The notes beneath the pieces were generated by a model, which did no database searches, had not been told where the DNA came from, and saw only the letters and a list, made by a program, of their open reading frames with translations. The translations under genes and the position numbers were made by a program. Positions 9,841-39,188 of a stretch of DNA of 54,240 bases are shown here, piece after piece (positions within the stretch are counted from its first letter, which is position 1; every line of letters starts with the position of its first letter). Origin of the DNA: Candidatus Kaiserbacteria bacterium (GTDB taxonomy: Bacteria > Patescibacteriota > Minisyncoccia > Phycocordibacterales > UBA2100); the NCBI GenBank assembly GCA_016217965.1, contig JACRFI010000006.1:1-54240 (forward strand), written 5' to 3'.

Positions 9841-10425
9841 ATGCAAGACGACACAAAAAAAATACTCGAAGAGCAATTCGCCGCACTGCCGAAGGCAGTG
9901 CAAGACGCCATAACGTCCGGCCATATTGAGGAAAAATTCCAAAAGATGGCAGAGAAATATAAATTGCACCTCGATCAGTGGCAGCAGGTCGAGAATCTCA
10001 TCATGCTTACGGTACTCGGCCTATCTGAACCTGAAAACCTTGTCGAAAAAATTGTTTCAGAAACAAACATCGGCAGAGAACGTGCCGACGATATCGTCAA
10101 CGATGTGGCTGTCACTGTATTCAAACCCATCCGCGAAGAGCTCGAGCGCGAGCTTGGCCACCCGCAGGCAAAAGAGGAACAATTTTCAGATGTGGAGAAA
10201 CTCCGAAATAACGTACTCTCGAGCGAAAAAAAAGACATTACTCCTTCCGCAAAAATACCTCAGGATGCCCCGGTGCCCGCGAATCCGGTTCCTGCCACGC
10301 CTCCGGCACTGAAACCCGATGAAAAAGTAACGCGCGCCCCTGCTTCTGGCGCATACAAACCGGGAGAAGCAAGTTCCATACGTGCAGATGTACACGACGA
10401 TCCGTATCGCGAGCCTCCGAAGTGA
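9841..10425 (+). CDS. Cytoplasmic protein of the T4SS-like cluster, unknown
   Basis: A 194-residue soluble protein that I cannot name. The first 110 residues are predicted helical and acidic. The C-terminal third is Pro/Ala-rich and probably disordered. There is no membrane segment. It lies eight bases after the VirB6-like gene and is probably part of the same transcript. The four-helix-bundle element lies directly behind its stop and separates it from the PrgI gene, so it may originally have been adjacent to that gene. Confidence 0.7.
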   Translation: MQDDTKKILEEQFAALPKAVQDAITSGHIEEKFQKMAEKYKLHLDQWQQVENLIMLTVLGLSEPENLVEKIVSETNIGRERADDIVNDVAVTVFKPIREELERELGHPQAKEEQFSDVEKLRNNVLSSEKKDITPSAKIPQDAPVPANPVPATPPALKPDEKVTRAPASGAYKPGEASSIRADVHDDPYREPPK

Positions 10426-10430
10426 GTTTC

Positions 10431-10454
10431 TAGCTTCTAGCGCGTAGCTTCTAG
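10431..10454 (+). repeat. Left end of the element, 10-4-10 repeat
   Basis: Two copies of the decamer tagcttctag at 10431-10440 and 10445-10454 with a four-base spacer. It is the inverse of the right end and matches 18730-18753 in layout. Confidence 0.8.
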
Positions 10455-10461
10455 AAAAATC

Positions 10462-10833
10462 ATGGGAAATGGCACAAATTCTCACAAAGACCTTATTGTT
10501 TGGCAGAAGTCCATGGATTTGACACTGTTAATTTATAAGTTAACAGAAAAGTTTCCTCAACGAGAAGTCTACGCGCTCTCATCTCAAATGCGCAGGGCCG
10601 CTATTTCTATTGCATCGAATATTGCAGAAGGTAGAAATCGTGGAACTCGTAGGGACTTCTCACATTTTCTGCGTATGGCATATGGATCCGCTTCGGAACT
10701 TGAGACGCAGCTACTAATCTGCAAGCAACTTTCGTTTTGCACGGAGGAAACTTTCATCCTCGCAAACGATCTTCTTACAGAGATCAGCAAAATGCTGCGT
10801 GCTATGATTAAAAAGCTAGAAGCTAGAAGCTAG
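10462..10833 (+). CDS. Four-helix-bundle protein (S23/IVS family)
   Basis: A 123-residue protein of the family first seen encoded in 23S rRNA intervening sequences and related in fold to the Avd accessory protein of diversity-generating retroelements. The molecular role is not established. Family hallmarks visible are LIVWQKSMDL near the start, FPQREVYALSSQMRRAAISI, SNIAEGRNRGT, FLRMAYGSASELETQL, and a final Lys-rich helix. The C-terminal residues LEARS and the stop are encoded by the ctagaag repeat that forms the right end of the surrounding element. No reverse transcriptase or variable repeat is present nearby, so a retroelement link is not supported here. Confidence 0.92.
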   Translation: MGNGTNSHKDLIVWQKSMDLTLLIYKLTEKFPQREVYALSSQMRRAAISIASNIAEGRNRGTRRDFSHFLRMAYGSASELETQLLICKQLSFCTEETFILANDLLTEISKMLRAMIKKLEARS

Positions 10834-10846
10834 CTACTAGAAGCTA
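10823..10846 (-). repeat. Right end of the element, 10-4-10 repeat
   Basis: Two copies of ctagaagcta at 10823-10832 and 10837-10846. A further overlapping copy starts at 10816 within the coding end, giving a seven-base periodicity. Confidence 0.8.
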
Positions 10847-10851
10847 CTCCT

Positions 10852-11355
10852 ATGCAGTTTCAAGTACCACAGTTCATTGAAGTCGAAGATAAGATATTCG
10901 GCCCACTCACGTTTAAACAGTTCGTATACGTGGCTGGTGGTGCGGGTCTCGCATACCTCATGTGGCGAGTATTTCCCATTTATCTCGCAGCGCCGCTTGT
11001 TGGAGGAGCACTCGGGCTGGGAGCGGCGCTTGCTTTTTTCCAGTACAACGGGCGACCATTTATTGTCGCGATAGAACATGCATTCTACTATCTTACGCGC
11101 TCAAAACTGTACCTATGGAAAGACGAGCGCCGGAATAAAAACCTCATAGCGCGAGCCGCGCAGGACGAAAAGAAGCCACTGCCCGTGTTTGTCCCTAAAC
11201 TTTCTGAGAGCAAGTTGCACGAACTTGCTTGGAGCCTCGACATCAAAGAGCGAATCGCCGCTGGGGTCGCGAGTGACGACGAACGCGAAGACTTTACCCC
11301 TCGCTCCCGCATTGTTGCTCCGATCAGAACGGCGCGTGGCGCTCTTGTACAATAA
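10852..11355 (+). CDS. PrgI-family (VirB3-like) membrane protein
   Basis: A small T4SS membrane protein that in Gram-positive systems takes the VirB3 place and works with the VirB4 ATPase. The 167-residue protein opens with the family-typical QFQVPQFIEVEDKIFGPLT, followed by two adjacent membrane helices (about residues 24-63), the FQYNGRPF turn, and a cytoplasmic tail with YYLTRSKLYLW. The order PrgI, TraC/VirB4-N-like, VirB4 is the standard one. The start lies five bases past the right end of the four-helix-bundle element, so the insertion may have altered its expression. Confidence 0.85.
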   Translation: MQFQVPQFIEVEDKIFGPLTFKQFVYVAGGAGLAYLMWRVFPIYLAAPLVGGALGLGAALAFFQYNGRPFIVAIEHAFYYLTRSKLYLWKDERRNKNLIARAAQDEKKPLPVFVPKLSESKLHELAWSLDIKERIAAGVASDDEREDFTPRSRIVAPIRTARGALVQ

Positions 11356-18729: not shown

Positions 18730-18845
18730 TAGCTTCTAGGGACTAGCTTCTAGCTTAAAATACCAATGCGCGCAGTATACATAGCAGACACTAAAAAACA
18801 ATCTCATGAGTTTCCTAGAAGCTAAAGACTAGAAACTCGAAGCTA
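18730..18845. mobile_element. Short non-coding inverted-repeat element between rpmH and dnaA
   Basis: The left end (18730-18753) is tagcttctag, ggac, tagcttctag, the same 10-4-10 layout as the four-helix-bundle element. The right end begins with ctagaagcta (18815-18824), then a four-base spacer, then a degenerate second copy ending at 18845. The interior of about 60 bases has no gene but holds the rpmH promoter. It looks like a MITE-like derivative of the 10431-10846 unit. Confidence 0.6.
18774..18801 (-). promoter_or_regulatory. Promoter of rpmH inside the repeat element
   Basis: On the minus strand TTGTTT and TATACT are spaced by 16 bases, about 50 bases before the rpmH start. The resulting leader would include the left-end repeat of the element. 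Confidence 0.5.
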
Positions 18846-35845: not shown

Positions 35846-36325
35846 ATGAAAGGATTCCCTCGTATCGCAGTCATGTTGCACAACGTTCGAAGTTCGCACA
35901 ACGTCGGCTCCATATTCCGCACCGCGGACGCGGCGGGAGTCGAGAAGATATTTCTCTCCGGCTATACGCCGACTCCTCGCGACCGATTTGAGAGGGTTCA
36001 GAAAAACATCGCAAAAACTGCTCTGGGAGCAGAAACACACGTGCTGTGGGAATTTCGGAAGAGTGCCGTTCCGCTTATTCGACAGCTCCGCAAAGATGGT
36101 CGGCTTATTGTCGCGGTCGAGCAAGACAAGCGTGCACATAATTATCGGACGTATTCAATCGAAAGGCCCACTGTTTTCGTATTTGGCAATGAGGTACGTG
36201 GGCTCTCGAAACAAATCCTCGATGTGTGTGACGACATTGTTGAGATACCCATGCATGGGAAAAAAGAGTCTCTCAATGTTTCCGTCGCCGCCGGAATCAT
36301 TTTGTTTGCACATCCTAGAAGCTAG
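35846..36325 (+). CDS. TrmH/SpoU-family RNA 2'-O-methyltransferase
   Basis: SAM-dependent RNA ribose methyltransferase with the SPOUT trefoil-knot fold. The 159-residue protein contains motif 1 NVRSSHNVGSIFRTADA, motif 2 VFVFGNEVRGLS, and motif 3 IPMHGKKESLNVSVAAGI, with the catalytic Arg and Ser/Asn residues in place. It lacks an extra N-terminal RNA-binding domain. The RNA target (tRNA or rRNA) cannot be assigned. Its last codons and stop are formed by a copy of ctagaagcta (36315-36324). Confidence 0.92.
   Translation: MKGFPRIAVMLHNVRSSHNVGSIFRTADAAGVEKIFLSGYTPTPRDRFERVQKNIAKTALGAETHVLWEFRKSAVPLIRQLRKDGRLIVAVEQDKRAHNYRTYSIERPTVFVFGNEVRGLSKQILDVCDDIVEIPMHGKKESLNVSVAAGIILFAHPRS
36315..36324. 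repeat. Single copy of the ctagaagcta decamer
   Basis: This decamer supplies the stop codons of both convergent genes: TAG of the methyltransferase on the plus strand and TAG of the LTD gene on the minus strand, through its palindromic ctag. Confidence 0.6.
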
Positions 36326-39153: not shown

Positions 39154-39188
39154 TAGCTTACAGCTTCTAGCTTCTAGCTTCTAGCTTT
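39154..39188. repeat. Heptad repeat cluster cttctag between ruvA and rpsT
   Basis: Three to four units of cttctag in tandem, containing one full tagcttctag decamer at 39168-39177. It fills the gap between the divergent ruvA and rpsT genes and may influence both promoters. Confidence 0.6.

Follow-up and report, generated by a model that had tools for sequence, protein, structure and literature searches.

A small unit in Candidatus Kaiserbacteria, probably mobile, that carries an S23 gene between inverted arrays of heptad repeats

INTRODUCTION

Proteins of the S23/IVS family go by the annotations "four helix bundle protein" and "S23 ribosomal protein." Their structure has been available since 2006 and, to our knowledge, no function has been assigned to them. 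Avd, the protein of diversity-generating retroelements (DGRs), is the accessory of a nucleic-acid copying machine. In Coxiella, an S23p open reading frame (ORF) is carried by an intervening sequence (IVS) of the 23S rRNA, which is 428 nt long, has a 28-bp stem, and is suspected of mobility (PMC4990558). Arrays of heptameric repeats have been described separately: GGGAATC, the Xanthomonas heptameric repeat (PMC4692102), GGGGAYT in Nostoc, and TAACTGA in Beggiatoaceae and others, all intergenic and often arranged as convergent pairs (PMC4692102, PMC4679880). No mechanism of transmission was evident for the TAACTGA heptamers, and a post-transcriptional role was proposed for those just upstream of starts (PMC4679880). 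Neither of these two papers mentions S23 or a four-helix protein, and no earlier link between S23 and heptads was found in the literature covered, which excludes preprints and most subscription papers.

RESULTS

Structure of the unit

The window, the whole 54,240-nt stretch analyzed here, contains a unit of ~0.42 kb in which an S23 gene is enclosed by inverted arrays of 7-base repeats. It lies between an operon gene without a Pfam match (positions 9841 to 10425, plus strand) and a PrgI family gene of the type IV secretion system (T4SS; 10852 to 11355, plus strand), which are both outside the unit and the second of which marks the insertion site in relatives. The left array (10431 to 10454, plus strand) follows the stop of the upstream gene and reads, in the YAG sense, TAGCTTC TAGcgcg TAGCTTC TAG. 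The right array is inverted (10816 to 10846, minus strand), and its letters are CTAGAAG CTAGAAG CTAGCTA CTAGAAG CTA. Between them, the S23 (23S_rRNA_IVP, four-helix-bundle) gene (10462 to 10833, plus strand) encodes 123 aa with an Avd-like fold. As had been predicted, the repeat encodes the end of the protein: the right array overlaps the last codons of S23 and supplies its final residues (..IKKLEARS*) together with the stop codon.

The original prediction described each end as two decamers with a four-base spacer. The positions were exact, but the letters of both flanks show that decamers and spacer are TAG-N4 heptads in register; the "spacer" is one degenerate heptad, and the repeat unit, as a period scan also indicates, is TAGNNNN. 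Exact decamers are found at 10431-10440 and 10445-10454 on the plus strand and at 10816-10825, 10823-10832, and 10837-10846 on the minus strand, which places the start of the right end at 10816 and not at 10823 as first thought. There are 11 exact decamers in the window, where about nine had been claimed, and 14 with at most one mismatch, compared to a mean of 2.0 and a maximum of 9 in shuffled sequences for the latter count. The same family includes a gene-less convergent pair, a miniature unit of 116 nt (18730 to 18845), a single decamer (36315 to 36324, minus strand), and a solo array of about 4 heptads (39161 to 39184, plus strand). The predicted dispersal holds for the 982-kb genome, with 52 exact decamers compared to 5 for the reversed control. 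Among short-period arrays in the 699 kb scanned, 36 had period 7, compared to 12 for the remaining periods between 5 and 11 combined; these are tandem, intergenic 7-mers, as in heptameric simple-sequence repeats (SSRs) or STRRs, and period 7 alone stands above background. In the minimum-energy RNA fold of the unit, the right array pairs with the left one (23 pairs), and the energy is -132 kcal/mol compared to -105 for shuffles (z, -4.5).

The protein belongs to PF05635 (E value of 2.6e-39; 134 bits, with a curated cutoff of 33.8), so that a small inverted-repeat unit carrying a four-helix-bundle gene stands as predicted. It also matches Pfam bAvd, below the bAvd cutoff (E value, 4.8e-6), and PDB entry 2gsc (E value, 4.3e-23), which is XCC0516, an S23 protein of known structure from Xanthomonas campestris that forms a pentamer. 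The predicted model (pLDDT of 94) had a Foldseek TM score of 0.89 to 2gsc and about 0.77 to Avd; among the Avd structures matched are those of Avd in complex with reverse transcriptase. The highly conserved polar residues Q42, R45, S49, N53, E56, and R60 share one face of helix 2, and E79 lies on helix 3; the motif GxxRxxxSxxxNxxE has been noted previously (PMC3936711). S23 has none of the catalytic motifs of known recombinases, and no Y1 (HUH) domain was found inside the unit, where PF05635 and bAvd are the sole profile matches.

Comparison with described systems

The unit resembles the 23S rRNA IVS in its S23 gene, its length near 0.42 kb, and its terminal inverted repeats, which pair into a stem. 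Unlike the IVS, it lies between protein-coding genes, no rRNA gene being matched in the window, and it ends in heptad arrays of which copies are scattered elsewhere. With REP/RAYT elements it shares a single gene flanked by inverted repeats of a dispersed, mostly intergenic family, and in relatives both kinds occur at the same T4SS site; however, the window protein has an Avd fold without Y1/HUH, and its repeats are tandem heptads, not palindromes. The arrays are like the heptameric repeats or STRRs in period and intergenic location, and GGGAATC genomes have S23 genes with such ends, whereas the reports on those repeats name no partner gene. Finally, the fold is that of DGR Avd, but no reverse transcriptase is present among the ORFs adjoining the window S23 gene, and no template/variable repeat was seen there.

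Generality across S23 genes

The genome contains three S23 genes. The other two are without TAGCTTC ends but are flanked by inverted heptads of their own, TAGGGTA/TAGCCAC and AGTCATA. The original prediction asked whether other four-helix-bundle genes carry the same ends and took their absence as refuting; because these two genes have their own inverted heptads, a refutation framed on one sequence is misleading. The analysis was extended to 112 S23 loci, 32 from the window's genus, a patescibacterial genus in which PF05635 is present in 35 of 52 genomes, and 80 named loci from about ten phyla. When one flank was compared with the inverse of the other, 94% of these loci attained a score of 14, a figure valid for the breadth of family sampled, since the 80 named loci are the top-ranking relatives of a single query. 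The corresponding values were 7% for 382 other ORFs at these loci, 13% for mispaired flanks of S23 genes, and 14% for direct orientation, and the control ORFs, which share genomes with the S23 loci, already contain dispersed arrays. Strong period 7 was found at 75% of S23 loci compared to 16% of controls, with every other lag at 3% or less. At 104 loci, the left heptad was read along the coding strand: 70% include a YAG triplet, compared to 15% for the complementary triplet, CTR. Viral contigs contributed only 4 S23 loci. That nearly all tested S23 genes share the inverted-heptad build, some of them with empty counterparts on near-identical plasmids, suggests a widespread, unnoticed mobile element as the origin of the heptamer repeats of bacterial genomes, for which an explanation has long been lacking. 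One contig of an "Acidobacteria" metagenome-assembled genome has an S23 gene and a TAGCCAC-type end that group with the window's genus, through recent transfer or a binning error.

Cognate heptads and their dispersal

Every S23 gene is paired with its own heptad. For 74 loci, the array 10-mers gave 539 matches in their own neighborhoods, compared to a mean of 55 and a maximum of 173 when the sets were exchanged among loci; dispersed repeats thus match the gene's flanks, as in REP/RAYT. At nonhomologous sites, heptad similarity grows with S23 identity, from 0.56 (below 35%) to 0.68 (60 to 70%) and 0.84 (at least 70%, n = 9), in a statistic that ignores kinship. The gene had originally been called cargo, or else a participant; the ends track the S23 protein, and the gene looks like a cognate partner and not like neutral cargo. 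Within the window's genus, lag-7 arrays away from the S23 gene number 4.0 per 100 kb in S23-positive genomes compared to 0.8 in S23-negative ones (per-genome Mann-Whitney P = 0.03, in a small sample), and some S23-positive genomes have no dispersed arrays in the part sampled. Gene-less inverted pairs are convergent in 9 of 10 cases, the orientation seen in the S23 unit. Orientation is strict for solo arrays located at most 40 nt from a gene end, which are in the CTR sense before starts (7 of 7) and in the YAG sense after stops (5 of 5). An AAGTATC heptad array is still there in one genome of the genus in which no S23 match was found, and the window's genome has this heptad too, again without an S23 gene to match.

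A triple GGGAATC, the heptamer described from Xanthomonas, is present in 3 of 399 Pseudomonadota genomes. In two of these (209 and 8 matches), what reads as the accB-accC interval is the location of an S23 gene with GGGATTC/GGGAATC-type heptad ends. The third has one long array and no S23 gene, which means that arrays can outlive or lack the gene. Examples of arrays at cyanobacterial S23 genes are AAGCTAA, CAGGTGA, GGGAACA, and GGGAGTA. Given that a heptad of its own accompanies each S23 gene, S23 without a function and heptamer repeats for which no mechanism was reported (PMC4679880, PMC4692102) appear to be two sides of one system.

Filled and empty sites

Empty sites, which the original prediction proposed to look for in relatives, were found in near-identical form for related units on plasmids. 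On Trichormus variabilis plasmid C and a Scytonema plasmid, a unit lies between two genes and adjoins a VirB10-family gene, whereas the counterparts on Tolypothrix PCC 7601, Nostoc carneum, and N. linckia plasmids (97 to 98% identity) are empty. The empty site reads AAAAAGTAATTAACAAATAA, and the filled site reads AAAAAGTAAT-[AAATCAGAATTCAG...S23...CTGAGTTCTTCTTT]-GTAATTAACAAATAA, with a clean 5-bp direct repeat, GTAAT. At a second site, filled on the plasmids of Nostoc C052 and ATCC 53789 and empty in three relatives, the repeat is TTCTA or TTCT, and TTCTA is a probable target duplication. No clean duplication was found at a Picosynechococcus plasmid site or at a Nostoc site, and a miniature of the same family as the second site's comparison has 0 to 1 bp. 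A target duplication, for which the original prediction suggested a check, is evident at one of the sites, probable at another, and absent or unclear elsewhere, and its length may not be constant. The Trichormus/Scytonema family is found at further plasmid sites, including one copy with an internally deleted gene and one decayed copy, and gene-less copies of roughly 190 bp are among its 53 matching places. In five sequences from Nostocales plasmids, this ~190-bp repeat has S23-type heptad ends and internal palindromes; in the three copies read, GATAA follows the right junction, and 0 to 1 bp is duplicated.

A different arrangement was found in Nostoc G470, where an S23/bAvd-like gene and a 395-aa transposase-like ORF are part of a 1,764-bp insertion sequence (IS). 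Its seven near-identical copies have the terminal inverted repeat CTCACAAGTGTAGG and a target duplication of about 9 bp, and they are inserted in repeats rich in C or G. They had the look of a burst of the simple unit, but because the IS is larger and encodes a transposase-like ORF itself, these copies were set aside as evidence of self-mobility.

The T4SS site and RAYT genes

In relatives, the window's own T4SS site may be empty or may contain either S23 units with other heptads or a gene whose sequence reads as the C-terminus of a RAYT. The S23 units there do not form one clade. A single ancestral insertion was rejected, as the tree needs 4 changes, at least 3 of them forced by well-supported branches; judging from the tree, the site appears to have been colonized more than once. 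The RAYT-like gene end is found at this intergenic site at three loci from other species of the genus, as would be expected of a landing site used by both kinds. The original prediction had also stated that no transposase is present. This is true of the unit, but the genome has three Y1_Tnp (RAYT-like) genes, located away from the S23 unit. Each is flanked by its own perfect or near-perfect palindrome of 22 to 27 nt, all different. RAYT was considered as the mover of the heptad repeats and rejected, the palindromes being unrelated to the heptads.

DISCUSSION

The feature in the window is probably a mobile unit of ~0.42 kb, in which an S23/Avd-fold gene between inverted YAGNNNN arrays encodes the cognate trans-acting factor. 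This reading builds on the architecture of the unit and its generality, the S23-heptad pairing, the dispersed copies, and the presence or absence of units at near-identical sites. S23 is most likely the cognate factor of its unit, which is akin to the 23S rRNA IVS and has the organization of REP/RAYT, though with an Avd-fold protein and without a known recombinase. The unit would insert between genes, usually co-oriented within operons, and would leave behind copies with deletions, miniature pairs without a gene, and solo arrays. An S23 pentamer, as in XCC0516, may recognize its own heptad, with one heptad per subunit as a natural reading, and S23 would drive the movement of the unit. How it might do so is a more tentative matter. 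Possibly, though with the balance tilting against it, S23 is not a classical transposase but, like Avd with its reverse transcriptase, an end-binding scaffold, which would serve copying or insertion by other enzymes on a folded strand with paired ends. Alternatively, the conserved face of helix 2 could have a direct nuclease role.

Other explanations have to be weighed against this. Regulation is one: a ring-shaped (TRAP-like) S23 would bind heptads in mRNA or DNA, the arrays ahead of starts and behind stops would be operators, the unit's own ends would be autoregulatory, and mobility would be incidental. The pentameric homologue 2gsc, the strict orientation of solo arrays near gene ends, and the post-transcriptional role proposed for TAACTGA repeats just upstream of starts (PMC4679880) agree with it. 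However, the gain or lack of a unit between near-identical sites, the derivatives with deletions, and the numerous copies without a gene are the behavior of a mobile element, the units adjoin unrelated genes, and the same orientation rule is expected if the arrays are remnants of units in operons, so that regulation as the primary role is unlikely. Since the solo arrays are strictly oriented at gene ends (12 of 12), S23 could still regulate alongside mobility.

Movement could also come from an IS or RAYT transposase in trans, with S23 as a passenger that brings some other benefit. Such an arrangement is rather unlikely, because RAYT palindromes are unrelated to heptads and, across ten phyla, the ends track the S23 protein and not any transposase; the three RAYT genes of the genome, the RAYT genes at the same T4SS site in relatives, the S23-family gene beside a transposase-like ORF in the Nostoc G470 IS, and the miniature inserts next to GATAA, with 0 to 1 bp duplicated unlike full units, speak for it. 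It is scarcely credible that the arrays are ordinary SSRs formed by slippage and close to S23 by coincidence. Heptad arrays do grow and shrink (beside the same Nostoc S23 gene, about 1.5 units compared to about 15), but inverted, locus-specific matching ends are found at 94% of S23 loci, and neighboring ORFs, mispaired flanks, and direct orientation are without this signal.

If S23 is the cognate mobility factor, its link to the heptads gives a direct route to its function, the binding and moving of cognate heptads, and S23 units would add a class of mobile element without a known recombinase. A broader reading, to which we give slightly less than an even chance, is that S23/Avd-fold proteins are the mobility factors of pan-bacterial minimal elements with lineage-specific tandem-heptad ends, the source of the bacterial heptameric repeats. 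Movement would then follow a new recombinase-free or novel-nuclease mechanism, with the Q42-R45-S49-N53-E56-R60 face as a candidate site, and the rRNA IVS and the S23 genes of cas loci would be special insertions. Already as insertions of a mobile unit, without this broader reading, the S23 genes that are oddly present in operons and cas loci would be explained. S23 has previously been listed as a cas-associated family (PMC3936711), an association that may reflect insertion. At three loci on cyanobacterial plasmids, S23 units lie within cas operons whose relatives are without S23 there, in the orders cas6-S23-cas4 and cas10-S23-cmr3.
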